Assembly (NCBI GenBank): GCA_015486055.1
Contig: WFSJ01000037.1
Location: forward strand, 1-47,243
DNA: 47,243 nt
Reading direction: 5' to 3'
Origin: Acidobacteriota bacterium
Lineage (GTDB): Bacteria > Acidobacteriota > Aminicenantia > S016-38
Shown here: one piece after another, positions 31,577 through 46,456 of the stretch
How positions within the stretch are numbered: position 1 is the stretch's first letter
Layout: each line of letters begins with the position of its first letter
Notes under the pieces: model-generated
What the model was told of the DNA's origin: nothing
The model's input: only the letters and a program-made list of their open reading frames with translations
Database searches by the model: none
Made by a program: the position numbers and the translations under genes

Positions 31577-31610
31577 GGGAATAAACGGGAAAAAATGGAA
31601 AAATTTGGGA
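31576..31610 (+). promoter_or_regulatory. MraZ operator: four TGGGA-type boxes with 10-bp period
   Basis: The GG of each box begins at 31577, 31587, 31597 and 31607: TGGGA, CGGGA, TGGAA, TGGGA. The exact 10-bp period equals the TGGGN-N5 repeats bound by E. coli MraZ. The boxes begin directly at the end of the -10, cover the predicted transcription start and ribosome binding region, and run into the first codons of mraZ. This suggests tight autorepression by MraZ. Confidence 0.7.
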
Positions 31611-32050
31611 TTTTAAGAGGTCACTCTCGGATTAAAACAGACGGAAGTGGGAGAATAAAATTGCCTTCTTCCTTTGCAAGGATAGTAAAGGAACACTACG
31701 GAAGGGAGATTTTTTTTACATCTGTTGAGGGAGAATCCGGGCTAATTTTCCCCATGAAAATCTGGTTAGAAAAGGAGAGGAGACTTCTTCAGGCACCGTC
31801 AATGGAACCTTCCGTCAAGAAATACCTCTCATTGACCAGTTATTATGGAAAAGTCCTATCCCTTGACAGCAAGGAAAGAATCCTCATTCCGCAGATTCTG
31901 AGGGAATCTGCCTCCCTTGAAGGAGATCTCGTTCTTCTTGGAAAGTTAAATTATATAGAGGTTTGGAATGATCAGAAGCTCAGGGAGAAATTCAATACCA
32001 ATCCATTTACTGACGAAGACTCAGCTGAGCTCGCAAAATGGGGGATTTAA
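31595..32050 (+). CDS. mraZ: Transcriptional regulator MraZ
   Basis: DNA-binding regulator and usual first gene of the dcw cluster. The 151 residues have two SpoVT/AbrB-like repeats, with the DNA-contact motifs SRIKTDGSGRIKLPSSF (about 9-25) and LSLDSKERILIPQILRE (about 88-104). The second repeat matches the usual DxxGR(I/V)xIP pattern less strictly (DSKERILIP). The start codon is inside the putative operator and has only a weak GGGA upstream. Stop overlaps the rsmH start as TAATG. Confidence 0.92.
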   Translation: MEKFGILRGHSRIKTDGSGRIKLPSSFARIVKEHYGREIFFTSVEGESGLIFPMKIWLEKERRLLQAPSMEPSVKKYLSLTSYYGKVLSLDSKERILIPQILRESASLEGDLVLLGKLNYIEVWNDQKLREKFNTNPFTDEDSAELAKWGI

Positions 32051-32889
32051 TGGAACATGTCCCTGTAATGAAGGAAGAGATTGCCTCCTTCATAAAGCAA
32101 GAAGGGATCTTCATAGATGCCACAACGGGAACAGGAGGACACTCTTTTTTCCTCCTGGATGAGTTTCCCAAACTCAGGGCTATCTGTATAGACAAGGATA
32201 GAGATTCTCTTGAGCAGGCGAGGAAAAAACTCGCAAGATTTGGGGAAAGGGCCAGACTCATACACTTAGATTACCGAAACCTTCCAGAAATAGAGTTTCA
32301 ATGGAAAAAAGTAATAGCCATACTCTTTGACATGGGGCTTTCCTCATATCAGCTGTCTTCTGATAAAGGATTTTCCCATATGAGGGATTCACCTCTTGAT
32401 ATGAGGTTTAACAACGAAGAAGGGAAACCAGCATATGTTTTCCTCAGGGAAATTTCCTACAGCCAACTTGTGAGGATTTTCAGAGATTATGCGGACTTGA
32501 AAAGAGCTGAAGAGCTTGCGAGAAATATCAAAGCGAGAAACATTAGAAGCACAGGGGACCTTGTTGATACTGTGAGAGAAGTTTATGGAATGAAGAAGAA
32601 AGAACTTCTATCAAGGATTTTTCAGGCGGTAAGAATAGGAGTAAATAGGGAGCTTGAGGGAATAGAAGAAATGATTTCCTCCCTTGCAGAGATAGTTTCC
32701 GAAGGCACCAGGCTTATATTCGTAACCTATCATTCAGGAGAGGACAGAATAGTGAAGAATTCCCTGAGAGATATGGAACGGAATGGGAAATTGAGGATTC
32801 TAACAAGGAAAGTGATAAGACCTGGAAGAAAGGAGATACTGCAAAATCCAAGAGCAAGATCGGCTAAGATGAGGGTTGCGGAAAAATGA
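32050..32889 (+). CDS. rsmH: 16S rRNA (cytosine-1402-N4) methyltransferase
   Basis: Methylates N4 of C1402 in the decoding centre of 16S rRNA. I chose the ATG at 32050 (279 residues) because it follows GGGGGA by 5 bases and gives the family N-terminus MEHVPVMKEE; an ATG 12 bases earlier is possible. SAM-binding DATTGTGGHSFFLLD, the DMGLSSYQLSSDKGFS segment with DMRF, and VTYHSGEDRIVKN near the C-terminus are diagnostic. Confidence 0.97.
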   Translation: MEHVPVMKEEIASFIKQEGIFIDATTGTGGHSFFLLDEFPKLRAICIDKDRDSLEQARKKLARFGERARLIHLDYRNLPEIEFQWKKVIAILFDMGLSSYQLSSDKGFSHMRDSPLDMRFNNEEGKPAYVFLREISYSQLVRIFRDYADLKRAEELARNIKARNIRSTGDLVDTVREVYGMKKKELLSRIFQAVRIGVNRELEGIEEMISSLAEIVSEGTRLIFVTYHSGEDRIVKNSLRDMERNGKLRILTRKVIRPGRKEILQNPRARSAKMRVAEK

Positions 32890-33200
32890 AAAGAAGGAGA
32901 AACCTGGGAAAGATTTTTTTTATCATATTTGTTTTTGAGATGCTTGTTCTTGTGTTCGTCTATGTAATAAACATAGCAAGAGCAAGTGAAAGACAGCTGA
33001 ATCTTCTCCTCGAGAAAAAAAATAAAATTCAGGATGAGATAGCAATCCTGCATATGAAGAAAGAAATTCTTTTATCCATAGATAGGCTGGAGAGATACAG
33101 CAAAAAGAAAGGACTTGTTAGGATATCACCAAAGGAAGTTTATGTTCTGAGAAAGGATAAAAAGGGATGGAGGATTCTCAAATATGAGAAAAATAAATAA
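32886..33200 (+). CDS. ftsL: FtsL-like cell-division protein
   Basis: A 104-residue bitopic membrane protein. A basic cytoplasmic start (MKRRRNLGK), one transmembrane helix (about 9-30) and a periplasmic coiled-coil (about 33-80) rich in Leu, Glu and Lys match FtsL. The sequence is too variable for a motif call, but its position between rsmH and ftsI is canonical. In the divisome it forms a complex with FtsB and FtsQ and activates FtsW/FtsI. It overlaps rsmH by 4 bases and ftsI by 17. Confidence 0.82.
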   Translation: MKRRRNLGKIFFIIFVFEMLVLVFVYVINIARASERQLNLLLEKKNKIQDEIAILHMKKEILLSIDRLERYSKKKGLVRISPKEVYVLRKDKKGWRILKYEKNK

Positions 33201-34821
33201 TAAAGACTCTCTCATCCTTTCTGTAATCTTTCTTTGGGGTATCATTATAACAGTGAGGCTTGTAGAGCTTCAGCTTTTCCAGCACGACTTCTTCTCTAAG
33301 CTAAAAAGAATTCAGACAAGGGCAGTGGAAGAGATAATCCCAAGAAGAGGGACAATTTACGACAGAGAAGGCGAAATCCTCGCTATAAGCATACCGTCTT
33401 TCTCGGCATATGTGAGAAAGGAACTGACTCCAGAGGAACTGGAAGAATTAAAAAGTGCTCTTAACCTCTCTATCTATCAAATAAGATCCATGGTGAAAAG
33501 ATGGAAAAAAGGGAAGAAATTCACATGGATAAAGAGAAAATTGACCGAGAAAGAATATAAAAAAGTAAAGGCATTAAAAATTGGAAAAATCGAATTTATT
33601 GAGGAGAGCAGAAGAGTCTATCCAAACGGAAGGCTCGCTTCCCACATACTCGGTGGTGTTGGAATAGATGGAAGGGGGCTTGCGGGGATTGAATATTCTA
33701 TGGAAAAAACCATAGGAGGAACTCATGGTAAGGAAGAAATTCTCCTTGATGGGCTTGGATATCCCATAGATATAAAAAATATATCCCCAGTGAAACCAGG
33801 GCAGGACCTTAAACTTACTATTGATGCATCCCTCCAGCATATGGTTGAGAAATATGTAAGGAAAAGAGTAAAGGAAGTCAGGGCAAAGAGGGGGACTGCC
33901 ATGATCCTCAACTTAAAAGGGGAAGTCCTTGCTATGGCTTCCTACCCTGATTTCGACCCGAATTTTTACACTTCAACTTTCAACAAAAACAACGAGGCTT
34001 TCATAAATTTCGGGGTCTCCTTGAACTATGAACCTGGATCAACAATAAAGTTCGTTGATATGGCTTCTGCACTTGAGGAAGGAGTAGCAAAACCGGATGA
34101 AAAAATTTTCTGTGGGAATGGAAAAATAGAAATTTCAGGGGTAACGATCAAGGATCATCTTCCCTTTGGCCTTCTCAGCATAAAGGAAATTCTCATATAT
34201 TCGAGCAATGTTGGAACTATAAAAATGGTAGCAAGATTGAAAAACGAAGTCTTTTACGAATATCTGAAGAAATTTGGTCTTGGAGAAAGAACCGGTATAG
34301 AACTCCCGGGAGAAGCAGAGGGATGGATACCTTCGCCGAAAAAATGGGGAAGGGTGACAAAAGCTTATTATTCTATTGGACAGGGCTTTGCCATCTCCCC
34401 GATTCAGATGGCGTCAGCTGTTCTTTCAATAGCCGATGGAGGGGTATGGCGTCAACCCCACATAACTTTCAGAAGTAATATAAGGGAAAGGAAAGTAATC
34501 TCTGCTAAGGTTGCAAGAGAAGTAAGAGATATGATGAAGGGGGTTGTTGAATTTGGAACGGGAAAGAAGGCAAGCGTAGGATGGATTCCAGTTGGGGGAA
34601 AAACAGGAACACCTGAAAAGATTATCGGAAAGTCAAAGAAGTTTACCCCTACCTTCGTTGGTTTCCTCCCGTATAGGAACCCGAAATATGTAATAGTAGT
34701 CGTGATTGATGAGCCTAAGAGAGGGCACTACGGCGGCGATGTTGCTGCACCTGTTTTCAGGGAAATATCAGAATACCTTCTTATGAAGGAAAATCTTTAC
34801 CCGGCGATGGTGATGGAATGA
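33184..34821 (+). CDS. ftsI: Division-specific peptidoglycan transpeptidase (PBP3 type)
   Basis: Cross-links septal peptidoglycan together with FtsW. The 545 residues have an N-terminal transmembrane anchor (about 10-28), a pedestal domain with RRGTIYDREGEILA and a transpeptidase domain. Active-site motifs are Ser286-Thr-Ile-Lys289 (PGSTIKF), Ser340-Ser-Asn342 (YSSNVGT) and Lys473-Thr-Gly475 (GGKTGTPEK). There are no PASTA repeats. The length is typical of diderm FtsI. Confidence 0.96.
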   Translation: MRKINNKDSLILSVIFLWGIIITVRLVELQLFQHDFFSKLKRIQTRAVEEIIPRRGTIYDREGEILAISIPSFSAYVRKELTPEELEELKSALNLSIYQIRSMVKRWKKGKKFTWIKRKLTEKEYKKVKALKIGKIEFIEESRRVYPNGRLASHILGGVGIDGRGLAGIEYSMEKTIGGTHGKEEILLDGLGYPIDIKNISPVKPGQDLKLTIDASLQHMVEKYVRKRVKEVRAKRGTAMILNLKGEVLAMASYPDFDPNFYTSTFNKNNEAFINFGVSLNYEPGSTIKFVDMASALEEGVAKPDEKIFCGNGKIEISGVTIKDHLPFGLLSIKEILIYSSNVGTIKMVARLKNEVFYEYLKKFGLGERTGIELPGEAEGWIPSPKKWGRVTKAYYSIGQGFAISPIQMASAVLSIADGGVWRQPHITFRSNIRERKVISAKVAREVRDMMKGVVEFGTGKKASVGWIPVGGKTGTPEKIIGKSKKFTPTFVGFLPYRNPKYVIVVVIDEPKRGHYGGDVAAPVFREISEYLLMKENLYPAMVME

Positions 34822-36266
34822 AACTTAAGGAAATTATAAGAGGAATAAATCCCATAAAGTTGCAGGGAGAAGATAAAGAAATATCATCTCTTAGTTACGA
34901 CTCAAGAAAAACAGGGTTAGGAAGTTTGTTTTTTGCAATAAAAGGGAACAAATACAACGGGAATGATTTTGTTGAAGATGCAATTTCAAAAGGAGCTGTT
35001 GGCGTTGTTTCGTCGCTTCCGCCTTTAAAGGAAGGAATAACCTGGCTTCAGGTTGTGGATGTAAGGGAAGCTATGGCAATAGCTGCGGATAATTTCTTTT
35101 CCCATCCCTCAAGGGAACTAAAAATCGCTGGCGTGACTGGAACGAACGGGAAGACTACTGTTGTTCAACTTATTGCATACATAACCAAAGGAGGATTTAT
35201 ATCAACGGTAGAAAACTGGTATGGGAGAAGGGAAAAGGCAAGACTTACCACCCCAGAGAGTCCTGATATAAACTGGATGCTCAGAGAAATGGTAAATTCC
35301 AAGTTGAAATATGCAGCTATTGAGGCATCCTCTCATGGTCTTTATTTCCAGAGGCTGAACAGGATAGATTTTGACATTTGTATATTTACAAATCTTTCTG
35401 GAGACCACCTTGATTTTCACCTTACAATGGAAAGATATTTTGAGGCAAAGTCCCTGCTTTTTAAAAGAATAGAAGGACCTGAAAAATGGGCGATTATAAA
35501 TACAGATGATCCCTATGGGAAAAGACTTCTTAGCATGGTAAATTGCGGAATACTGACCTATGGAATGGAAAGGGAAAATTCAATTCACCCCGAGGATTTC
35601 AAGATGGGAATTGAGGGAATAGAAGCAGTGATAAGAACCCCTGTTGGGGAATTTGAAATCAAATCTAAACTTACAGGGAAATTCAACCTTTACAATATAA
35701 TGGCAGCAATGGGTGCATCAATTGTGCTGGAAGTAAAAAAGGAAAGAATACAGAAAGGAATAGAGAACTTCTCAGGTGTAAAAGGCAGGATGGAAAGGTT
35801 TACCTATTCCGGAATAAATGTGATAGTGGATTATGCTCACAGCGATGATTCCCTCAGGAACCTTCTTGAATCAGTAAGGGAATTTACAGAGGGGAGGGTT
35901 ATAACTGTGTTTGGCGCAGGGGGAGACAGGGATAGGAGCAAAAGACCAAGGATGGGAAGGACTGCTGGTTACCTTTCAGACCTTGTGATAATAACAAACG
36001 ACAATCCAAGAAGCGAAAATCCATTTAGAATAATAGAAGAAATAGAAACAGGGGTTAAGGAGAAAACCAGCTTATATATGAAAATTCCCGACAGAAAGAG
36101 AGCAATCACGAAAGCCATTGAACTAGCAAAACCAGGGGACACAGTTGTTATAGCAGGCAAAGGTCACGAGGATTATCAAATAATCGGTGATAAGGTAGTC
36201 CATTTCTCAGACCAAGAAATAGTGGAAGAATTTTTCGGGAGGAGGGATGAAACTAAAGGAAGATGA
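34818..36266 (+). CDS. murE: UDP-MurNAc-L-Ala-D-Glu:meso-diaminopimelate ligase
   Basis: Adds the third residue of the peptidoglycan stem peptide. The 482 residues comprise the three Mur-ligase domains. The P-loop is GVTGTNGKTTV near residue 110. The carbamylated-lysine region follows the EASSHGL segment. The C-terminal NDNPRSENPFRI contains the DNPR signature that recognises meso-diaminopimelate rather than lysine. It overlaps ftsI by 4 bases and murF by 20 bases. Confidence 0.96.
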   Translation: MKLKEIIRGINPIKLQGEDKEISSLSYDSRKTGLGSLFFAIKGNKYNGNDFVEDAISKGAVGVVSSLPPLKEGITWLQVVDVREAMAIAADNFFSHPSRELKIAGVTGTNGKTTVVQLIAYITKGGFISTVENWYGRREKARLTTPESPDINWMLREMVNSKLKYAAIEASSHGLYFQRLNRIDFDICIFTNLSGDHLDFHLTMERYFEAKSLLFKRIEGPEKWAIINTDDPYGKRLLSMVNCGILTYGMERENSIHPEDFKMGIEGIEAVIRTPVGEFEIKSKLTGKFNLYNIMAAMGASIVLEVKKERIQKGIENFSGVKGRMERFTYSGINVIVDYAHSDDSLRNLLESVREFTEGRVITVFGAGGDRDRSKRPRMGRTAGYLSDLVIITNDNPRSENPFRIIEEIETGVKEKTSLYMKIPDRKRAITKAIELAKPGDTVVIAGKGHEDYQIIGDKVVHFSDQEIVEEFFGRRDETKGR

Positions 36267-37563
36267 GGTGATAAAGGGGATTAAACCGAAAGAAGTTTTG
36301 AACCCAAGGAGAACTGTATTTTCCTATTTCGGATTTGACTCGAGGAAAATAAAGGATTCTTCCCTTTTCTTCGCGATCAAAGGGGAAAGGGATGGCCATG
36401 ATTTTATTCGGGATGCATTTTCGAAAGGAGCGAAAGGAGCTGTCGTTGAGAGGAAAATTGGCGGGATTCCCTTATTTATTGTTGGAAACACATTAAAGGC
36501 ACTTGGAGATCTTGCCTCCTTCTCCCTGAGCCTAAATTCGACGGAAAGGATAGGAATCACGGGAAGTGCTGGAAAAACAACAACGAAGGAATTTATAAAT
36601 TATTTCCTCTCGCAGAGGTTCTCAGCAGAAAGGACCCCGGGAAATTGGAATAACCTCATAGGAGTGCCTACATTCCTGCTCAACAGAAGTAAAGGCAGTA
36701 AATACCTGATTATAGAGATGGGAATAAGCGAGAAGGGAGAGATGGGAAGACTTGTTGAAATAACCTCTCCTACAACAGCGATGATAACAAGAATATACGA
36801 AGCCCATACAGAATTTCTGAATTCAATTGAGGAAGTAAGAAAGGAAAAGAACAGGATATTTTTAAGGGCGAGAAGAGCTGCATTTAATCTTGATGACAAA
36901 ATGCAGGAGAAATTATGGAGGGATTTCCAGGGAGAAAAAAGGTTCTACTCAGCATTTAAAAAAGCCGATGTAAGACTTTTGAGGTGGAACAGAATATCCC
37001 CTCTTGAGCTTTCGGTTGAAATTTCATATTTAGGTAAAAAATTGAACGGAAGGTTCCATTTCTGGAGCTCAGTTTTCTTGGAAAATCTTCTTGGTTCCTT
37101 GGCGCTTTCCTCTTTCTTCCTCAAGGAACCTCCGGAATTTGATAATTTAAGGCCACTGGAAGGAAGAGGAAAAGCATGGGAAAAGGGTAGAATAACATTT
37201 ATAGATGAAAGCTATAACTCTAACCCTTCTTCTCTTCTCCGTTCTCTTACCTGTCTGAGTTCACTTGAGGGGAAGAAAATAGCTGTAATTTCTGACATGC
37301 TTGAGCTAAAGGAGCCCGAGAAGGAACATAAACAGATTGGGAAGGCAGTAAGCGGGCTTGAGATAGACCTTATAATTTTTGCAGGAGAATTGATGAAATT
37401 TGCTGCCGCAGAGGCAGGAAGAAAAAGAGAAGGGATACTCTGGGCCGAATCTCCTGAAAGTGCAGGAAAAATCCTTGAGAAAAAAATAATCTCCAACTCA
37501 ATTGTCTTTTTTAAAGGTTCCCATGCCACCGAGCTGTGGAAGGAGGTAGAAAGGTGGAAATAG
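36247..37563 (+). CDS. murF: UDP-MurNAc-tripeptide:D-Ala-D-Ala ligase
   Basis: Adds D-Ala-D-Ala to complete the pentapeptide precursor. The 438 residues have the Mur-ligase layout with P-loop GITGSAGKTTTKEF (note Ser-Ala where Asn-Gly is usual: SAGKTT), the ATP-site EMGISEKGEMGRL and the C-terminal DESYNSNPSSLLRSL, which is diagnostic of MurF. The ATG follows GGAGGAGG closely. In most dcw clusters mraY comes next, but here murD follows directly. Confidence 0.95.
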   Translation: MKLKEDEVIKGIKPKEVLNPRRTVFSYFGFDSRKIKDSSLFFAIKGERDGHDFIRDAFSKGAKGAVVERKIGGIPLFIVGNTLKALGDLASFSLSLNSTERIGITGSAGKTTTKEFINYFLSQRFSAERTPGNWNNLIGVPTFLLNRSKGSKYLIIEMGISEKGEMGRLVEITSPTTAMITRIYEAHTEFLNSIEEVRKEKNRIFLRARRAAFNLDDKMQEKLWRDFQGEKRFYSAFKKADVRLLRWNRISPLELSVEISYLGKKLNGRFHFWSSVFLENLLGSLALSSFFLKEPPEFDNLRPLEGRGKAWEKGRITFIDESYNSNPSSLLRSLTCLSSLEGKKIAVISDMLELKEPEKEHKQIGKAVSGLEIDLIIFAGELMKFAAAEAGRKREGILWAESPESAGKILEKKIISNSIVFFKGSHATELWKEVERWK

Positions 37564-38873
37564 GAGGAAGAACCTTTGCAGTTGTTGGCTTCGGAAGGAG
37601 TGGAAGGGCAATACTGGATTTTGTGTCCTCAAGGGGAGGAAAGGTTATTGTCTCAGAGAAAGATGGTGAAAAGGAAAATGAACTTAAGGAGTTAGGGGTT
37701 AAATATGAAATAGGAAACTCTCCTGATTTTCTCAGCAAAGCAGATTATATTATCGTTTCCCCTGGCGTTCCATGGGATTCTCAGTTCTTAGTAGAGCTCA
37801 GGGAAAAGGGGAAGCCTGTGTTAGGAGAGATAGCGCTGGCCCTTCCTTTTATAAGGGCAAAAATGATAGGAATAACAGGAAGCAACGGGAAATCAACAAC
37901 TGTTGCCCTTGTGGCGCATATTCTAAAGGGGGCAGGACTGAAGGCAGAGGCTTGCGGAAACATAGGAAACCCCCTTATAAAATTTACAGACAAAAAATAC
38001 GATTTTCTTGCTGTTGAGTTAAGCTCCTTTCAGCTTGAGGCAACTTCCATAGAAGTATTTATTTCCTCAATATTGAATTGTTCCCCTGATCACCTTGACA
38101 GGCATGGAGGTTTTGATACCTATTGTCAGGCAAAAGAAACTCTCCTTGAAAACCAGAGGGAGGGCTTTACTATTCTTAACAAAGATGATGCAAGAGCTGG
38201 AATATGGGTCAAAAAGTCAAGGGTCGAAAAGTTTTTTTTCTCCTCAAGGGAAAAGGTTGAGAAGGGAATACAAATTAAGAATGGAAAAGGATACCTCCAT
38301 GATGGAGAATTAACCTTTGATTCTTCTAAGATGAAGCTTTTCGGACTTCATAATCTGGAAAACGCAGCAGCTTCCTTTCTTGTAGCTTTAGGAGTGGGTT
38401 TAGACCACGGCATAATTAGAAAGAGCATATACAGCTTCAAACCATTGGAACACAGAATGGAGCTTTTTGCCCTGTGCAAAGGTAAATCATTTATAAATGA
38501 CTCAAAAGCAACTAATGTGGATGCTGTAAGAAGAGCACTTGAATCCCTTAAGGGCAAGTACATATTGATAATGGGGGGAAGAGGAAAGGGGGAAAGTTAT
38601 TCTTCCCTTTCCAAGCTTGTAAAAGAGAAGGTCAGGCTGATTGTCTGTATTGGAGAGGAAAAGAAAATCATAAGAGATGACTTGGGAGAATATGCTGAGG
38701 TTTTCCTTGCCTCATCCCTTGAAGAGGCAGTGGAGCTTTCATTTTCAAAGTTGGATGAGGCAGATGGAGTAATACTTTCACCTGCCTGTGCAAGTTATGA
38801 CATGTTTGAGAATTTTGAGGAAAGAGGGAAGAAATTTAAGGAGGAAGTAATGAGGAGATGCTATGAAGATTAA
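37554..38873 (+). CDS. murD: UDP-MurNAc-L-alanine:D-glutamate ligase
   Basis: Adds D-glutamate to UDP-MurNAc-L-Ala. I chose the GTG at 37554 (439 residues) because AAGGAGGT lies 6 bases before it; the frame could also open with GTG at 37536. The N-terminal VVGFGRSGRAILDF binds UDP, the P-loop is GITGSNGKSTTVALVAH, and LNCSPDHLDRHG and FINDSKATNVDAVRRAL are diagnostic. It overlaps murF by 10 bases and ftsW by 11. Confidence 0.96.
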   Translation: MEIGGRTFAVVGFGRSGRAILDFVSSRGGKVIVSEKDGEKENELKELGVKYEIGNSPDFLSKADYIIVSPGVPWDSQFLVELREKGKPVLGEIALALPFIRAKMIGITGSNGKSTTVALVAHILKGAGLKAEACGNIGNPLIKFTDKKYDFLAVELSSFQLEATSIEVFISSILNCSPDHLDRHGGFDTYCQAKETLLENQREGFTILNKDDARAGIWVKKSRVEKFFFSSREKVEKGIQIKNGKGYLHDGELTFDSSKMKLFGLHNLENAAASFLVALGVGLDHGIIRKSIYSFKPLEHRMELFALCKGKSFINDSKATNVDAVRRALESLKGKYILIMGGRGKGESYSSLSKLVKEKVRLIVCIGEEKKIIRDDLGEYAEVFLASSLEEAVELSFSKLDEADGVILSPACASYDMFENFEERGKKFKEEVMRRCYED

Positions 38874-39963
38874 TCTTTATTCCTCAGAGTTCTGGAAAAT
38901 GGAAAAGTTCCTTCTATTTTCAGTAATAATTCTCATTTTACTTGGGACTATAGCAGTGGATAGTGCCTCAATGTTGCCTTATCTAAGGTTCAGAGGTGGG
39001 GGGTTCAGATTTTTCTTCAAGCATCTCCTTTCTATTTTTGCAGGACTTTTCCTTGCAACATCTGTCCTGCTAACAAGAAAAAAGTTCTACAGGGAAAACT
39101 CCTTTGTTGTGTCTCTTAGTATTTTGACCTTCATTCTCCTTTCCCTTGTGTTTTTCTTTCCTGCAAGAAACAATGTCCATCGCTGGGTTAATTTCCTTTC
39201 CATATCATTTCAGCCCTCAGAACTTGCTAAACTCACTCTCATATTAGGTTTAAGCTTAATCTTAGGAAGGGCTGGAACCACAAAGAAAGAGGAAAATGAG
39301 GCTATTATATATTCCCTTGCGATAACGATTCTCATTGCAGCAGAGACCGACTTCGGTACTGCCCTGTTTATAGCTCTAATTTCAGGGATTATCTTTTATA
39401 TTTCGGGAATGAGGCTAAAGAAAATACTGGGGATATCTCTGATTTTTGCAGCAGGGATATTAATTACGGCTTTACTGCCCCAGGCTTCTTATCTCAGGAA
39501 TAGATTCTTTTCATTTATGAAGGATCCAAGGGCAATCTACCAGAGAAAACAGGCACTTATAGCCCTTGGCTCAGGGGGAATCACGGGAAGAAGCCCAGGG
39601 GAAAGCCTTCAGAAATTTCTATATCTTCCTGAGGCTCACTCTGACTTTATATTCTCAATTCTTGGTGAGGAAATGGGACTCATAGCCACCCTTACTGTTC
39701 TTCTGGGGTTTTTAGCAATAGCATATTCCGGATTTAAAATTGCCCGTAGAGCGAGGGACTCAAAGAGTAAACTCATAGCATATGGAATTTCCTCTGCCCT
39801 CTCAATTCAAGCACTTATGAATATATCGATAAATATTGGAATTTTTCCACCAAAAGGAATACCCCTCCCATTCATAAGTTTCGGAGGAAGTTCTATGGTA
39901 ATCTCAATTCTCATGGCTTCAATCCTCATGCATATATGGATACGGAGAAGGGATGAGACCTGA
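38863..39963 (+). CDS. ftsW: Septal peptidoglycan glycosyltransferase FtsW (SEDS family)
   Basis: Polymerises septal glycan strands from lipid II. The 366 residues form about ten transmembrane helices. SEDS motifs are visible: SFQPSELAKLTLILGL, ETDFGTALFIAL with the conserved acidic residue, LPEAHSDFIFSILGEEMG and KGIPLPFISFGGSSM. The position after murD is canonical, but murG, which usually follows, is missing. Confidence 0.96.
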   Translation: MKINLYSSEFWKMEKFLLFSVIILILLGTIAVDSASMLPYLRFRGGGFRFFFKHLLSIFAGLFLATSVLLTRKKFYRENSFVVSLSILTFILLSLVFFFPARNNVHRWVNFLSISFQPSELAKLTLILGLSLILGRAGTTKKEENEAIIYSLAITILIAAETDFGTALFIALISGIIFYISGMRLKKILGISLIFAAGILITALLPQASYLRNRFFSFMKDPRAIYQRKQALIALGSGGITGRSPGESLQKFLYLPEAHSDFIFSILGEEMGLIATLTVLLGFLAIAYSGFKIARRARDSKSKLIAYGISSALSIQALMNISINIGIFPPKGIPLPFISFGGSSMVISILMASILMHIWIRRRDET

Positions 39964-41320
39964 ACTAGTAATGGTAAAGAATATCCATATGGTAGGGATA
40001 GGGGGTAGTGGAATGAGTGGGATAGCAGAGATACTCTGGAACATAGGCTTTTCTATAACAGGAAGCGATATATCTGAAAGTTCAAATGTAAAAAGACTAA
40101 GGAAACTGGGGATTCCAGTAACAATAGGACACAGCCCGAAAAACCTCAGGGATGCTCAGCTCCTTGTGATTTCCTCTGCCATAAAGAAGAACAATGTTGA
40201 AATACTTGAGGCAAAAAAAAGAAGAATTCCAGTTATAGCCAGAGCAAATGCACTCGCCCAGATAATGAGGATGAAATACTCTGTTGCTGTTGCCGGAACC
40301 CATGGGAAAACAACAACAACATCAATGATAGGAATAATATTAAAGGAAGCAGGGCTTGACCCGACAATAATCGTGGGCGGAGTTCCGCTTCAGCTTGGCG
40401 CAAGCGCAAAGCTCGGCAAGGGAGAATATCTCGTTGCTGAGGCTGACGAATCTGACGGCTCGTTTCTGAAGCTTTACCCATTTGCAGAGGTCATAACAAA
40501 TATAGAAGAGGACCACCTTGACTATTATTCTGGAATAGAGGAAATAATTGAGGCTTTTCATTCTTTCATCCTCAATGTTCCCTTCTTTGGATTTGTAGTT
40601 CTGAACAGGGATGACCCTCACCTTAGGAAGCTTGAAAATAGATTGGAGAGATTTTATATAACCTATTCCCTGAAGGAAGATTCGGATTTTAGAGCAGAAT
40701 TAATGGGGAAGGAGGGAGAATTCAGTGTCTTCTCAATAAACGAAAAAGAATACAGGATAAAGATTCCAGGCATCCATAATGTTTACAATGCCACTGCTTC
40801 CATAGCCTTATGCAGGAGGCTTGGTATAGATGAGCTTACCATAAAGAAGGCGCTTGAGAGCTTTTCTGGCGTTAAAAGAAGGTTGGAATACAGAGGAAAA
40901 GCTGGAGGCGGAATTTTCTATGAGGACTATGCCCATCATCCAACCGAGGTAAGCACAGTTATATCCTCACTCAGAGAGATTTATCCTGAAAGAAGAATCG
41001 TTATTATTTTCCAGCCTCACAGATACACAAGGCTTTCAAAGATGATGGAGAAATTCGCCATATCTTTGGCAGAAGCTGATTTTGTAGTAATAACCGAGGT
41101 ATATCCTGCTGGAGAATCTCCCATTGAGGGTGTAAGCGGGGAAAAGCTCTACAGAATCTTGAAGCCTTTAAAGGAAGAAGTTGAATATTCCAAGGAACTT
41201 GATGAGCTTCCTGAAATTCTGAGTTCAATTTTCAGGAAAGGAGACGTTGTGGCTGTGGTAGGGGCAGGAAATGTCAATAAATATCTTGAAAAGATGAAGG
41301 AGTCTGTAAATGAAAACTAA
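39953..41320 (+). CDS. murC: UDP-MurNAc:L-alanine ligase
   Basis: Adds the first residue, L-Ala, to UDP-MurNAc. The 455 residues include HMVGIGGSGMSGIAEIL (UDP-binding, diagnostic of MurC), P-loop VAGTHGKTTTTSM, VAEADESDGSFL and the C-terminal EDYAHHPTEVS. The ATG at 39953 overlaps ftsW by 11 bases; an internal ATG at 39971 is an alternative. murB, which often follows murC, is not present. Confidence 0.97.
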   Translation: MRPELVMVKNIHMVGIGGSGMSGIAEILWNIGFSITGSDISESSNVKRLRKLGIPVTIGHSPKNLRDAQLLVISSAIKKNNVEILEAKKRRIPVIARANALAQIMRMKYSVAVAGTHGKTTTTSMIGIILKEAGLDPTIIVGGVPLQLGASAKLGKGEYLVAEADESDGSFLKLYPFAEVITNIEEDHLDYYSGIEEIIEAFHSFILNVPFFGFVVLNRDDPHLRKLENRLERFYITYSLKEDSDFRAELMGKEGEFSVFSINEKEYRIKIPGIHNVYNATASIALCRRLGIDELTIKKALESFSGVKRRLEYRGKAGGGIFYEDYAHHPTEVSTVISSLREIYPERRIVIIFQPHRYTRLSKMMEKFAISLAEADFVVITEVYPAGESPIEGVSGEKLYRILKPLKEEVEYSKELDELPEILSSIFRKGDVVAVVGAGNVNKYLEKMKESVNEN

Positions 41321-41978
41321 CAGAAAAAAGGCGCCTGTCTTTCTTTACCTCCTTCTTCCCATGGCTCTTTTGTTCTACCCTGCATTCAAAAAAGCTGAAA
41401 CCGAAAAATGCTTCCTGTTAAAAAATATAAAGATAGAAGGCGAACAGGGTATTAAATTACATTTTGAAAGACTTATAGGAAGAGACCTCAGAAAAATCAA
41501 CGAAAGAAAACTGGAAAATGAAATAATAAAGGACAAATTTGTAAAAGAAGTAAGGATAAGAAAAATATTTCCCCATACTTTAATAGTATCTATTAAGAAG
41601 AGAAGAGCGATTGCCTGCTATGAAACATCCAATGGTTTATATACTCTGGGCGAGGAAGGAGAAAAAATTCAGGGGGGCTGTTCATCTTCTCTTCCTGTTC
41701 TTCTCCAATCTCCCCTTGACTTAAAATTTCAGGTGAAATTCCTCAGGGAAAGGAAAGTGCTGGCTGCGGAGACAGACTGGATAAAATTTCTCTCGCCCTT
41801 TTCTATTGAGATAAAACCGAAAAGAATTGATATGGTAGTTCTGTTTCCAGTTGAGAATTTTCCCAAAAGATATGCAAGATTCAAAAGTATTTTGCCTGAA
41901 ATTTTAGATCTTGGCTTCAAACCTGCTTACCTTGATTTTAGGGTAAAGGGTAAAATCTTCATTGGGAGAAAAAGATGA
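41310..41978 (+). CDS. ftsQ: FtsQ-like cell-division protein
   Basis: A 222-residue bitopic membrane protein. A basic N-terminus is followed by one transmembrane segment (FLYLLLPMALLFYPAF), then a POTRA-like domain (about 30-105). That domain carries IKIEGEQGIKLHFERLIGRDLRKI and the conserved strand VRIRKIFPHTLIVSIKKRRAIA. It recruits FtsL/FtsB to the division site. FtsQ is variable and is called by topology, POTRA pattern and gene order. It overlaps murC by 11 bases and ftsA by 4. Confidence 0.85.
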   Translation: MKTNRKKAPVFLYLLLPMALLFYPAFKKAETEKCFLLKNIKIEGEQGIKLHFERLIGRDLRKINERKLENEIIKDKFVKEVRIRKIFPHTLIVSIKKRRAIACYETSNGLYTLGEEGEKIQGGCSSSLPVLLQSPLDLKFQVKFLRERKVLAAETDWIKFLSPFSIEIKPKRIDMVVLFPVENFPKRYARFKSILPEILDLGFKPAYLDFRVKGKIFIGRKR

Positions 41979-43174
41979 GAAATTTTGCGGCAGTGGATCT
42001 TGGATCGAAGAAACTGGTGGTTGCTATTGCAAGGGCGAGCAGAGATTATCTGGAGGTTCTGGCAACTCAAAGAGAAAATTCGAGGGGGATAGGAAGGGGG
42101 ATTATAAGAAACCTTAGGGAAGCAAAGGAGGTTCTTAAAGCCTCAATTGAACTTGCGGAAAGAGATTCCGATGTTCAGGTTGAGGAAGTTTATTTGAATC
42201 TCAGCGGGGTAAATTCTGAAGTCGTCTCAGCACTGGGGAAAACGGTAATAACAGGGGAAAGAATAACAAAAAGGGAAATTCTCAGAGCAATGGAGACAGC
42301 AAAGAGGATAACAATACCCCAGAATAGATACACTATCCATGTTTTCCCTACTGAGTTTACCGTTGACGACCAGGAAGTTGATGAGCCCGAAGGAATGTTT
42401 GGAACAGTTCTTCAGGTAAAGGTTCAAATAATAACTCATCTTCTAACTGTTGTAAGAAATATGGAAAACTGTGTAAATGGAGCCGGTTTCTACATAAAAG
42501 AACTTGTCCTGAATCAGGTGGGTAATATATACTCGTTGCTCACTAAAGAAGACAGAAATCTCGGAGTTGCAATAATTGATATAGGGGCAGAAACAACCGA
42601 TGTGGTTCTCGTTTTAAAAAACGAGATTCACAGGGTTTTTTCCTACGAAGTGGGTGGAAAGGATTTCACAAGTGACATAGCTATAGGGCTTAATACTCCT
42701 GTGAAGGAGGCCGAAAGGATAAAGGTCAAATTTGCGAGATTATTCACAGGAGAGGAAGAAGAGATAATAGAAGTTCCATTGATGGATGGAAGCGAAAAGA
42801 ACATAAGCTCTAACGAACTTTACGGAATAATATTCCCAAGGGCCGAACAGCTTTTCACCTGGATAAAAGAAGATATTGTAAGGGCAGGATGGGAACTCAG
42901 GGCAACATCTGGCATAATACTTACAGGGGGAGGAGCTCTTCTTTCCGGATTGAAGAATTTCGCCTCATCATTTTTCAACACAATGGTCAGAGTTTCGGGA
43001 CCTCAAAAGCTCGAAAACATAAAAAATCTCAGCGAGGAATTTCTCTCTCCTGAATACTCTGTCCTTGTGGGAATATTAAAATACGCCCAGGAAAGGGAGG
43101 GGAAAGAGGAGGAAAGCGCAGAAGGGCCTTTCTCCTTTATAAAAAGAATATTAGGGGGTAAAAAATGGAAATAA
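41975..43174 (+). CDS. ftsA: Cell-division protein FtsA
   Basis: Actin-like protein that tethers FtsZ to the membrane. The 399 residues show AAVDLGSKKLVVAIA (phosphate 1), SHS2-domain strands (about 80-160), VAIIDIGAETTDVVLV (phosphate 2) and GIILTGGGALLSGLKNFA (adenosine motif). The C-terminal FSFIKRILGGKKWK is the membrane-binding amphipathic helix. It overlaps ftsZ by 10 bases. Confidence 0.95.
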   Translation: MRNFAAVDLGSKKLVVAIARASRDYLEVLATQRENSRGIGRGIIRNLREAKEVLKASIELAERDSDVQVEEVYLNLSGVNSEVVSALGKTVITGERITKREILRAMETAKRITIPQNRYTIHVFPTEFTVDDQEVDEPEGMFGTVLQVKVQIITHLLTVVRNMENCVNGAGFYIKELVLNQVGNIYSLLTKEDRNLGVAIIDIGAETTDVVLVLKNEIHRVFSYEVGGKDFTSDIAIGLNTPVKEAERIKVKFARLFTGEEEEIIEVPLMDGSEKNISSNELYGIIFPRAEQLFTWIKEDIVRAGWELRATSGIILTGGGALLSGLKNFASSFFNTMVRVSGPQKLENIKNLSEEFLSPEYSVLVGILKYAQEREGKEEESAEGPFSFIKRILGGKKWK

Positions 43175-44367
43175 GCTTTGAAAATGAGACGAAACACGCA
43201 CCAATGGTAAAGGTTTTAGGAATTGGTGGAGGAGGAGGAAATTCCATTGATATGCTCATTGAGGAGGGTGTAAATGGGGTGGAATTAATAGTAGTGGATA
43301 CGGATAAATATTCTCTTGAGAGATCAAATGCAGAGGTTAAGATACAAATAGGTGGGTCTGTCACAAGGGGGATGGGAACCGGTGGAGACCCATTAAAAGG
43401 GAGAGAATCCGCACAAAAAGACTCCGATAGGATAATGAAAGCCATAGAAGGCGCGGATATCCTATTTATATCTTCAGCTTTTGGGGGAGGAACAGGCACA
43501 GGAGCGACACCTGTTATCGCTGAACTTGCTAAGAAAAATGGTATACTTACTATTTCTTTTATCATGATGCCATTTGAGTTTCAGGGGCCAGATGCTATTA
43601 AGAAAGCAGAGATGGGTCTTTCTGGACTCAGGGATTCTGTAGACAGTCTCATAGTTGTTCTCAATTCTAATGCTCTGAATCTCGAATTGACCAAGTCCCC
43701 ATCAAATGTTCTCAAGGATATAAACAGGGTATTTCTTAACGCAGTTGTTGGGATAAGAGATATAATTCTCAAGCCAGCCTATATGAAGCTTGATCTGCCG
43801 GATGTGAAAAATTCCCTTTATGGTAAGGGAAGAACGATAATAGGTGTTGGAGACGGAGAAGGGGACCAGAAAGGCGAGGAGGCAGTAAAAAAAGCCCTTT
43901 CTTCCCCTCTTCTTGAGAAGGATTCAATAAAAGGAGCTCGTTCAATTATTCTACATGTGATTCACGGGGAAGATACAACTATGGAAGAAATACTGAGAAT
44001 CGCAGAAATAATAAGGGACGAGGCAAAAACTGAGGTTCCATTAATGGATGTAAACTTAAAACCAGGGTTTTCCTTTGACAAATCCTTCAAAGGAAAAATA
44101 AGAACAACGGTCATAGCGACGGATTTTGTAGAGGAAGAAACAGATGATACTCTAAGCGAGACTAAAGACACTAAAGATAAAGAACCCGGGAAGGAGAATT
44201 TTCCCCTTGACGCCGAGCCCTTCCAGACGAAGTTCGGAGGTGAAAAACCCAATTCTTTCCCTACACCCACAAAAGTTACCCCTATTGAAAAAGAGGAGAA
44301 AACTCCTAAGAGAAGAAAGACCTCCATCCCCCCCTTTCTTGATAAATTTATGAACGATAAGGAATGA
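43165..44367 (+). CDS. ftsZ: Divergent cell-division GTPase FtsZ
   Basis: The tubulin-like ring protein, 400 residues. KVLGIGGGGGNSIDMLI and the tubulin signature GGGTGTGA (107-114) are intact. Several normally stable positions differ. The usual AGMGGG is SAFGGG, the PNDRLL-type loop is LNSNAL, and the catalytic T7 loop NxDxxD is KLDLPD (Lys208; Asp210 and Asp213 retained). The C-terminal linker (about 315-385) is charged. The last residues SIPPFLDKF resemble the conserved FtsA/ZipA-binding peptide. The gene order leaves no doubt about identity. Confidence 0.93.
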   Translation: MEISFENETKHAPMVKVLGIGGGGGNSIDMLIEEGVNGVELIVVDTDKYSLERSNAEVKIQIGGSVTRGMGTGGDPLKGRESAQKDSDRIMKAIEGADILFISSAFGGGTGTGATPVIAELAKKNGILTISFIMMPFEFQGPDAIKKAEMGLSGLRDSVDSLIVVLNSNALNLELTKSPSNVLKDINRVFLNAVVGIRDIILKPAYMKLDLPDVKNSLYGKGRTIIGVGDGEGDQKGEEAVKKALSSPLLEKDSIKGARSIILHVIHGEDTTMEEILRIAEIIRDEAKTEVPLMDVNLKPGFSFDKSFKGKIRTTVIATDFVEEETDDTLSETKDTKDKEPGKENFPLDAEPFQTKFGGEKPNSFPTPTKVTPIEKEEKTPKRRKTSIPPFLDKFMNDKE

Positions 44368-45617
44368 TGAGGAAAAAATTCATATTCTCGCAATTAGTTA
44401 CCCCTTGTGGGAAAAAAGGAAAAAGAGGTAAGGAAATGGGGGAACTTGATGTGTTTGAGCCTGGAGAAATTCTCACTGAAAATGGAAGAATATTGGAAGT
44501 AGGAACAAGGACTGGCGAGGCCGATTTTACCGAGGAGAATTTTGGAAAGCTTGCCATCCCCGGGCTCGTTGATGCTCACAACCACCTCGTATATGACGGA
44601 GAGAGAATAGATGAATTTGAGATGAAGCTGAAGGGTGCTACCTATCTTGAGATAGCGGAGAGGGGAGGGGGCATACGATCTACAGTAAATGCCACAAGGA
44701 AAGCGTCTAAGGAAGACCTTTTTTTGCAAGCAGGCGAAAGAGTATTCTACATGCTCAAGAATGGAACAACTGCCTCTGAAGCAAAGTCTGGATATGGACT
44801 CAATCTAAAGGATGAAATAAAACAGCTTGAGGTTGCAAGGGAATTAGGAGAGAAATTTCCAATTGACATAGTTCCGGTTTTTCTCGGGGGTCATGATATT
44901 CCCCCTGATTTAGAGAAGAAGGATTACCTTTCCCTTCTTGAAAGGGAAATCATTCCTGAAGTTGCAGAAAAAGGACTTTCTAAGTATTTTGATGCTTTTT
45001 GCGAGAAAGGTGTATATGATGTGAAGGACGTTGAGAAGATGTTCAGGGCAGCAAAAGAAAACGGGCTCAAACTGAGACTTCACACAGAGGAATTTTCCCA
45101 CATGGGTGGAATAAATTTGGGTGTGGAATACAAAGCTGTCTCTGTTGACCATCTACTCTTTGCAGATAAAGGGGACATAGAGCTTTTGGCTTCCTCTGAC
45201 ACTGCAGCTGTAGTCATGCCCTCTGTGAGTTTTTTCCTCAGGCTTGATAAATATGCTCCTGCAAAGGAGATCATTGATGCGGGAGGAATCGTTGCCCTTG
45301 GCACTGACCTCAATCCTGGAAGTTCCCCCGTTGAGTCCATGTTTTTTGTCCTATGGCTTGCCGTCTTTAAGCTTAATCTAACAATGGAAGAGGCCATAAC
45401 AGCAGCAACATTAAACTCGGCTTATGTGCTTGGGATATCAGATCTGAATGGAAGCCTTGAGAAAGGCAAAAAGGCTGATTTTATAGTGCTTAATCTTTCG
45501 GATTACAGGGAAATATTTTACAGGCCTTCTGAAACTCATATAGATTCTGTGTACAAAGAGGGAAGAAAGGTTATAAATTCCCAAAATGTAGGCTATTTCC
45601 CGACAATTGGCATATAG
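44364..45617 (+). CDS. hutI: Imidazolonepropionase
   Basis: Third enzyme of histidine degradation; hydrolyses imidazolone-5-propionate to formiminoglutamate. The 417 residues have the amidohydrolase motif PGLVDAHNHLVYDG (the usual HxH), LKGATYLEIAERGGGI, TTASEAKSGYGLN, LHTEEFSHMGG and GTDLNPGSSP. The N-terminal part with QLVTPCGKKGKRGKEMGEL matches the family, which supports the ATG at 44364. That ATG overlaps the ftsZ stop by 4 bases. No hutH, hutU or hutG is in the window. The 3' end overlaps the convergent GGDEF gene by 25 bases. Confidence 0.94.
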   Translation: MMRKKFIFSQLVTPCGKKGKRGKEMGELDVFEPGEILTENGRILEVGTRTGEADFTEENFGKLAIPGLVDAHNHLVYDGERIDEFEMKLKGATYLEIAERGGGIRSTVNATRKASKEDLFLQAGERVFYMLKNGTTASEAKSGYGLNLKDEIKQLEVARELGEKFPIDIVPVFLGGHDIPPDLEKKDYLSLLEREIIPEVAEKGLSKYFDAFCEKGVYDVKDVEKMFRAAKENGLKLRLHTEEFSHMGGINLGVEYKAVSVDHLLFADKGDIELLASSDTAAVVMPSVSFFLRLDKYAPAKEIIDAGGIVALGTDLNPGSSPVESMFFVLWLAVFKLNLTMEEAITAATLNSAYVLGISDLNGSLEKGKKADFIVLNLSDYREIFYRPSETHIDSVYKEGRKVINSQNVGYFPTIGI

Positions 45618-46456
45618 GTTATTATTTTGTTTTTACCGCTTTTTTTTGCTTCATAAAGGGCATCATCTGCCTGCTCAATAAGTTCGTCAATTGAGGATGT
45701 TGTAAGAGGATAAGAAGAAATGCCGGCACTTATAGTAACTTTGACAGTTTCAAAAAAAGCTTTCACTTCTTTCTTTTCGACTTCCTTCCTTATCCTTTCG
45801 GCAAGGTTCGAAGCCCCCTTAATATCTGTTCCTGGAAGAATTATTGAGAATTCCTCCCCACCATATCTCCCTGCTATATCCTGAGTTCTCTTCTGGACAA
45901 GGATTATTTTGGCTATTTCCTTCAAAACTATGTCCCCAATCGGGTGTCCATACCTGTCGTTTACCCGCTTGAAATCATCTATGTCCATCATTATAAAGGA
46001 CAGAACGCTATTTTGTCTTCTTGCAACTTCAAATTGAATCTTCAACTCGTCCAAGAGAAATACTTTATTTAGAAGACCTGTGGCACCATCGTAAACGGCC
46101 ATCTTGTATAGCTTCTCAAAGAACATAGTGTCGTATTCGTCCTTGTAATGGAATTTTACGATTGTCTCACCGACTCTGATTTTATCCCCGGAGACGAGAA
46201 TTTTCTTTGAAATCCTTTCCTCGTTTACATAGGTCCCGTTGGAAGAACCAACGTCTTCAACCTCGTAATACTCATCCCTTGTGGGTTTTATTATACAATG
46301 TCTCCTTGAAATCATCCTATCCGTAAGGCGAAATGAAGCTTCTTTACTTCTTCCTATGAGAACAGGCTTCTTTCCTACTTGGAGCTCCTTTCCGAAATCA
46401 AAATTGGTTCCCCAGATAACAGTAAGAAAGGGATATTTTTTCTCTTCATTTTCCAT
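45593..46456 (-). CDS. FHA-GGDEF diguanylate cyclase
   Basis: A 287-residue cytoplasmic signalling protein. Residues about 10-105 form an FHA phosphothreonine-binding domain (VLIGRSKEASFRL, SRRHCIIK, GSSNGTYVNEERI). Residues about 120-285 are a GGDEF domain with the active motif RYGGEEF and, five residues before it, the RTQD inhibitory-site motif (RxxD). DIDDFKRVNDRYGHPIGD is also typical. It should make cyclic di-GMP with product inhibition, controlled by a phosphorylated partner. It lies 14 bases after efp and is probably cotranscribed. No Thr kinase is in the window. Confidence 0.93.
   Translation of the reverse strand: MENEEKKYPFLTVIWGTNFDFGKELQVGKKPVLIGRSKEASFRLTDRMISRRHCIIKPTRDEYYEVEDVGSSNGTYVNEERISKKILVSGDKIRVGETIVKFHYKDEYDTMFFEKLYKMAVYDGATGLLNKVFLLDELKIQFEVARRQNSVLSFIMMDIDDFKRVNDRYGHPIGDIVLKEIAKIILVQKRTQDIAGRYGGEEFSIILPGTDIKGASNLAERIRKEVEKKEVKAFFETVKVTISAGISSYPLTTSSIDELIEQADDALYEAKKSGKNKIITYMPIVGK

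Follow-up and report, generated by a model that had tools for sequence, protein, structure and literature searches.

The window analysed here is a stretch of 47,243 nucleotides from an uncultured Acidobacteriota bacterium, of the class Aminicenantia in GTDB (GenBank assembly GCA_015486055.1, contig WFSJ01000037.1, positions 1 to 47,243 of the forward strand), and it forms one contig (C37) of a draft genome of 1.86 Mb (G000) that is assembled in 60 contigs and is 98.9% complete; here and below G, C and L label genomes, contigs and loci, and f and g label families and genera. Its division and cell wall (dcw) cluster occupies positions 31595-44367 and, according to open reading frames (ORFs) and family profiles, consists of 12 plus-strand genes in the order mraZ-rsmH-ftsL-ftsI-murE-murF-murD-ftsW-murC-ftsQ-ftsA-ftsZ. 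All 11 of the 11 junctions overlap, by 4-28 bases each when computed with the first possible start of each ORF. The order and the overlap at every junction are as described in a sequence-only reading made by a model from the window, which had also reported that mraY and murG are cleanly missing. Both are indeed absent: the murF/murD junction (a 28-base overlap at 37536..37563, plus strand), which is the mraY site in canonical relatives, and the ftsW/murC junction (an 11-base overlap at 39953..39963, plus strand), which is their murG site, hold neither space for nor a remnant of either gene. The main point is invisible from the window: after its relocation, murG has become part of one reading frame with murJ, the gene for the flippase.

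The sole MurG match in the source genome lies at C15:24059-25111, within a 1190-codon open frame. This fused gene, murG-murJ (G000:C15:24062-27631; L009:6063-9632), encodes 1189 amino acids laid out as MurG (residues 1-350), a putative FHA-like linker (about 350-460), MurJ (462-960) and HEAT repeats (about 985-1189). The Pfam families GT28 N (3-134), GT28 C (182-346), MurJ and HEAT_2 (from about 997) all score over their cut-offs, TIGR01695 (MurJ) matches at 270.2 bits against a cut-off of 235.55, and the closest PDB sequences to the MurG part are themselves MurG. PF03023 (MurJ) has no second match anywhere in the source genome. The mraY gene (G000:C15:27631-28722; L009:9632-10723) scores 261 bits with TIGR00445 against a cut-off of 192, and its start shares one base with the end of the fused gene.

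The sequence-only reading had supposed that mraY, murG, murB and ddl might have moved together, or else that the lipid II route might be regulated on its own. The joint move holds for the first two, which a genome-wide search places side by side on another contig, in a pairing conserved in relatives; murB (C18) and ddl (C35) are found elsewhere and apart, on two different contigs. The latter two are truly absent from the window's dcw cluster, as had been stated, and form a separate matter from the relocation of mraY and murG. Their lack is unremarkable because nine canonical loci of the class are also without them there (murB and ddl between murC and ftsQ in 0 of 9). Loss of lipid II synthesis is ruled out, since both mraY and murG are present in the genome. 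A second Glycos_transf_4 gene (C49) was considered as mraY and judged WecA-like, because the genes beside it read as encoding a UDP-galactopyranose-mutase-like protein and a glycosyltransferase; it is the C15 gene that scores over the TIGR00445 cut-off. A plasmid origin was also rejected, as 0 of the 72 plasmid records matched cover 80% of the fusion. No RNA element reaches its gathering score in L009. Ahead of the fusion (L009:501-6027) stand secD, secF, a TonB-like gene, exbB and exbD, accompanied by an opposite-strand gene resembling diacylglycerol kinase, and the secD-exbD stretch also precedes the fusion in G332 (L204).

For comparison across relatives, 82 loci were annotated using profiles derived from proteins of the source genome. 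HEAT repeats share a frame with MurG in 35 of the 36 MurG loci that lie outside dcw clusters, the exception (L214) stopping at its contig end, and MurJ is also in that frame in 24 of the 36. mraY is directly downstream in 34 of the 36, with L053 and L214 stopping first at contig ends; the MurG frame overlaps mraY by 4 or 8 bases in 12 of 14 pairs, with gaps of 34 (L050) and 3 (L052) bases in the others. Three layouts of this cassette are seen: MurG-MurJ-HEAT in f1 and f2, MurJ-MurG-HEAT in f6 and f21-g27, and MurG-HEAT with a separate MurJ, which is adjacent in f21-g89. A genome of f34 (G085) carries a MurJ-family gene after mraY plus another such gene elsewhere. Long frames that might have been FtsW-MurG or other MurG fusions in the dcw loci L055, L056, L058 and L059 were rejected, being upstream extensions with the genes in different frames.

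The dcw clusters of cassette-type genomes mirror this arrangement, with mraY or murG visible in 0 of 33 dcw loci (for 32 of them the cassette was seen in the genome; the remaining one is from G331, a member of the window's genus that yielded no cassette); both junctions are visible in 31 of the 33, and one each in L191 and L203. L192 and L193 (G344 and G343, of f2 genus g176) have a dcw cluster that also lacks murF, with murD directly after murE. All 13 of 13 canonical MurG loci have mraY and murG both in place, and the usual sites named in the sequence-only reading, mraY between murF and murD and murG between ftsW and murC, are seen in nine other families of the class, which keep both genes in dcw. 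The cassette and canonical layouts are mutually exclusive in the sampled loci. Misassembly or misbinning of the window or of the C15 contig could be suspected, the genome being a draft in 60 contigs; this is refuted by relatives. The same dcw order is shared by six other genomes of the window's family (G331, G332, G004, G034, G232 and G330), none with mraY or murG at the junctions, and two of these loci (G332 and G330) stop inside dcw, beyond both junctions. The fusion is found in five of the six, G331 (83% complete) being without a match, and in many drafts of two classes.

MurG and MurJ occupy a single open frame in 35 of 142 genomes of the class, namely 6/7 in f1, 24/34 in f2 and 5/5 in f6, with MurG first in f1 and f2 and MurJ first in f6; some f2 frames are truncated by contig ends, so that only part of one domain is visible. 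In a second class, that of G013, 5 of 93 genomes carry the pair in a single frame with MurJ first, namely G365 (f67) and all four members of f21 genus g27 (G013, G228, G428 and G429). The sister genus g89, also of f21, includes three genomes (G124, G212 and G425) with MurG and MurJ as separate neighbouring frames, one (G426) in which a truncated MurG lies next to a separate MurJ frame, and one (G427) with a truncated MurG alone. Across a phylum sample of 247 genomes, the fusion is present in at least 10 (including G000, G004, G034, G232, G120, G020, G093, G240, G013 and G228) and 3 have no match. The nearest named relatives, among the matches listed, are 'Candidatus Aminicenantes' metagenome-assembled genomes, represented by loci L060-L065. 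For other phyla, 74 loci whose titles do not name Aminicenantes were chosen by MurG similarity among the matches listed, and none of them has MurG in the same frame as MurJ or HEAT, no search being dedicated to another phylum.

The history of the cassette is traced with trees. Those of MurG and MraY are quick and carry Shimodaira-Hasegawa-like approximate likelihood ratio test (SH-aLRT) support only. In the MurG tree, which leaves out L213 and L214, a single branch with support 100 splits 34 cassette rows from 13 canonical ones, and the MraY tree, which leaves out L053 (no mraY) and L044 (too short), likewise separates 32 cassette from 13 canonical rows by one branch with support 100. On a tree of seven dcw proteins (46 rows) the cassette label needs three changes, at least two of them forced by starred branches, and forcing the 33 cassette-type genomes together makes that tree 204.9 log units worse (approximately unbiased test, p-AU 5e-05). 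Because cassette MurG and MraY form single branches and the dcw genes do not, MurG-HEAT with mraY has, on this phylogenetic evidence, a history separate from that of dcw, by transfer or by an old split alike.

The MurJ parts of the fusions (22) and the MurJ proteins of f21-g89 (2) form one clade with support 99, divided inside into f1/f2 and f6/f21; long MurJ branches, those of the separate MurJs of G030, G223 and G056, have uncertain positions. It thus seems that MurJ entered the cassette a single time, followed either by fusion in two positions or by one fusion and a rearrangement. This bears on an explanation by co-expression only, according to which MurJ neighboured MurG and mraY and a stop codon was lost, giving equal amounts of the two proteins with no hand-over of lipid II. 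Tight operons with overlapping genes are the rule in the source genome, MurJ stands adjacent and unfused in f21-g89, and the structure models leave the placement of the domains unfixed, all of which suit this explanation. Two opposite orders within one MurJ clade, together with long retention across genera, exceed what a single neutral accident would give, an argument softened by the fact that one fusion followed by rearrangement would also produce two orders. Co-expression only is rated as unlikely, and still as the strongest competitor of a functional coupling.

Conserved residues and models characterise the parts of the fused protein. The HEQN, GS-GAR, RAGAG-E and HQ-NA columns are invariant in 6 of the 6 fusions compared, and an N-terminal GGGTGGH is present in 5 of 5 uncut ones; we take these to be the MurG active-site motifs. 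For a relative, the fusion of 1071 residues (L060) was modelled with AlphaFold2 at a predicted local distance difference test score (pLDDT) of 87.2, and the model's top Foldseek match is MurJ 7waw (template-modelling score 0.89 by target), with MurG 3s2u at 0.86. The linker between MurG and MurJ is about 110-150 residues long in f2, G000 and G332 and about 35 in G004, G034 and G232. One f2 linker was modelled (mean pLDDT 60.8, its core better) and matches mostly FHA domains in the PDB, at a best E of 3e-4, and YscD_cpl, presumably an FHA-fold family, is matched in 2 of 8 linkers, at a best E of 3e-6. On these matches the linker may be FHA-like.

The geometry of the fusions is informative about a possible mechanism. 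In f1 and f2, MurG is joined to MurJ at the N terminus of the latter, immediately before its first transmembrane helix (TM1); in f6 and f21-g27 MurG comes after the final helix. If the two termini of MurJ face the cytoplasm, either fusion order would place MurG on the lipid I side of the membrane. According to PMC6465408, the proposed route of lipid II into MurJ is lateral, through a portal between TM1 and TM8. In the proposed sequence of events, lipid I would be made by MraY and would receive N-acetylglucosamine from the MurG part, which the fusion would keep beside the flippase on the cytoplasmic face; the MurJ part would take up the resulting lipid II on the spot via the lateral TM1/TM8 portal, so that flipping would be coupled to synthesis in place and 1:1 in amount. 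The docking of partners would fall to the HEAT repeats and, in proteins that have it, to the FHA-like region.

We place at roughly 70% the probability that mraY and murG left the dcw cluster to form a cassette for the membrane steps, in which a MurG-MurJ polypeptide couples synthesis to flipping. Coupling of lipid II synthesis to flipping is thus judged most likely, its simplest form, we infer, being proximity coupling, and true channelling is possible. The fusion of a synthase with a flippase suggests that lipid II may pass directly from one to the other. More tentatively, and with somewhat less than even odds, the single chain may be a synthase-flippase that channels lipid II: with MurG tethered just ahead of the portal-lining TM1, lipid II would enter the flippase as it is made. 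In this reading the contact between MurG and MurJ might represent a general and hitherto unnoticed step of peptidoglycan synthesis that these lineages made covalent, because two opposite fusion orders occur within one MurJ clade, and the FHA-like and HEAT parts might be sites of control and docking.

Several observations weigh against coupling by the fused protein. The hand-over of lipid II from MurG to MurJ is something we infer, and the L060 model does not fix the placement of MurG relative to MurJ (predicted template-modelling score, pTM, 0.61). The MurG part matches TIGR01133 over positions 6-344 of 353 at 237-242 bits, below the cut-off of 250. The cassette does not need the fusion, as seven families (f12, f24, f32, f34, f37, f41 and f62; L049-L054 and L220-L223) keep MurG-HEAT and mraY with an unfused MurJ. 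Ten f2 genomes and one f1 genome are without a full fusion, five and one of them respectively without any match; those of f2 without any match are G072, G129, G350, G355 and G356, and those with merely a short or weak match are G341, G345, G353, G354 and G358. Within f2, 6 of the 9 genus g3 genomes that the search covered (G072, G129, G350, G354, G355 and G356), drafts that are 73-93% complete, have no convincing MurG by TIGR01133, and the sole match in G355, at 27 bits, is apparently to another glycosyltransferase. Loss of peptidoglycan was considered for g3, whose genomes still have murC, murE or ftsZ matches, whole or partial; the gap may reflect binning or decay of the pathway.

The residues of the MurJ part also belong to this balance, and they bear on a reading in which MurJ serves as an anchor or scaffold for MurG and MraY rather than as an active flippase, another protein doing the flipping. 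Of the 15 f1/f2 rows, 14 have no arginine in the TM8 column, and in g3 the rows of G020 and G357 lack the first TM1 arginine and G020 also the TM2 one, so that flippase activity is not certain in every fusion. An arginine stands three residues past the TM8 column in 12 of the 15 f1/f2 rows, and the TM8 arginine itself is kept in 7 of 7 f6/f21 fused rows. Of the 22 fused rows, 20 retain the first TM1 arginine and 21 the TM2 one, and all 22 have the second TM1 arginine and the Asp39-type residue; we take the cavity arginines and the Asp39-type residue to be functionally important positions (in part from PMC6465408). This conservation argues against a mere scaffold, as does the lack of any other MurJ match in the genome, in a search confined to the MurJ family. 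The scaffold reading is considered improbable, clearly more so than co-expression only, and coupling by the fused protein is preferred to both.

The individual dcw genes of the window, all on the plus strand, differ in the strength of their family support. The cluster opens with mraZ (31595..32050; TIGR00242 at 57.6 bits and PF02381 at 52.3 bits), followed by rsmH (32038..32889; TIGR00006 over cut-off). The next gene, ftsL (32886..33200; a weak PF04999 match of 14.6 bits against a cut-off of 22.9), is named mainly by position because its family support is weak, and the same applies to ftsQ (41310..41978; POTRA_1 at 21.9 bits against a cut-off of 23); NCBIfam profiles gave no match to either protein. 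An ftsI-type transpeptidase gene (33184..34821) has matches to the spoVD, mrdA and FtsI families, each below its cut-off. Support over cut-off is found for murE (34818..36266; NF001126 at 539 bits), murD (37536..38873; TIGR01087), murC (39953..41320; TIGR01082), ftsA (41975..43174; TIGR01174) and ftsZ (43165..44367; TIGR00065). The murF gene (36247..37563) reaches 287.5 bits with TIGR01143, whose cut-off is 288.6, and ftsW (38863..39963) scores 277 bits with TIGR02614, below the cut-off of 337.5 and ahead of rodA. Directly after ftsZ, with a 4-base overlap, comes the imidazolonepropionase gene hutI (44364-45617), a pairing that recurs at many further loci of the class, among them canonical loci. 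A diguanylate cyclase (GGDEF) gene lies on the minus strand at 45593-46456; it adjoins the dcw end across the window's family, and the N-terminal stretch of its product resembles FHA proteins.

To our knowledge, the route that lipid II takes from synthase to flippase is not settled. Natural fusions in both orders offer comparative evidence for a direct contact between MurG and MurJ, and they provide constructs with the two proteins already at 1:1, suited to structural studies and to the reconstitution of synthesis together with flipping. No earlier report of a natural MurG-MurJ fusion was found in a search of the full-text literature, outside which most subscription papers lie, and no MurG-MurJ complex is described in the available portions of PMC8871954, PMC6420597, PMC5039524, PMC8092295, PMC12283558, PMC6180346 and PMC6465408. 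Known fusions of precursor enzymes, as given in PMC6420597, are MurE-MurF, MurB-MurC, MurG-MurC, MurC-Ddl and MraY-MurG. They resemble the present case in joining enzymes of the same pathway in one chain, with MurG a partner in two of them, and they differ from it in that the list given there contains no flippase, whereas here synthesis and transport are joined. The mycobacterial MurJ (MviN) has an intracellular pseudokinase region and works with FhaA and CwlM (PMC6180346). Extra cytoplasmic parts on MurJ are common to both systems, and so, if the linker here is FHA-like, is the involvement of an FHA domain; in mycobacteria, however, the FHA domain is on a separate protein and MurG is unattached, whereas here the putative FHA-like linker joins MurG to MurJ. 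This likeness is offered as a parallel, with homology not claimed. Finally, the window's cluster has the same genes, order and tight packing as canonical dcw clusters, of the Escherichia coli type and in nine families of the class, and departs from them in that mraY (murF/murD) and murG (ftsW/murC) are gone and are encoded in the cassette instead, which makes the gap in the window's dcw cluster the visible trace of their relocation and of the fusion.

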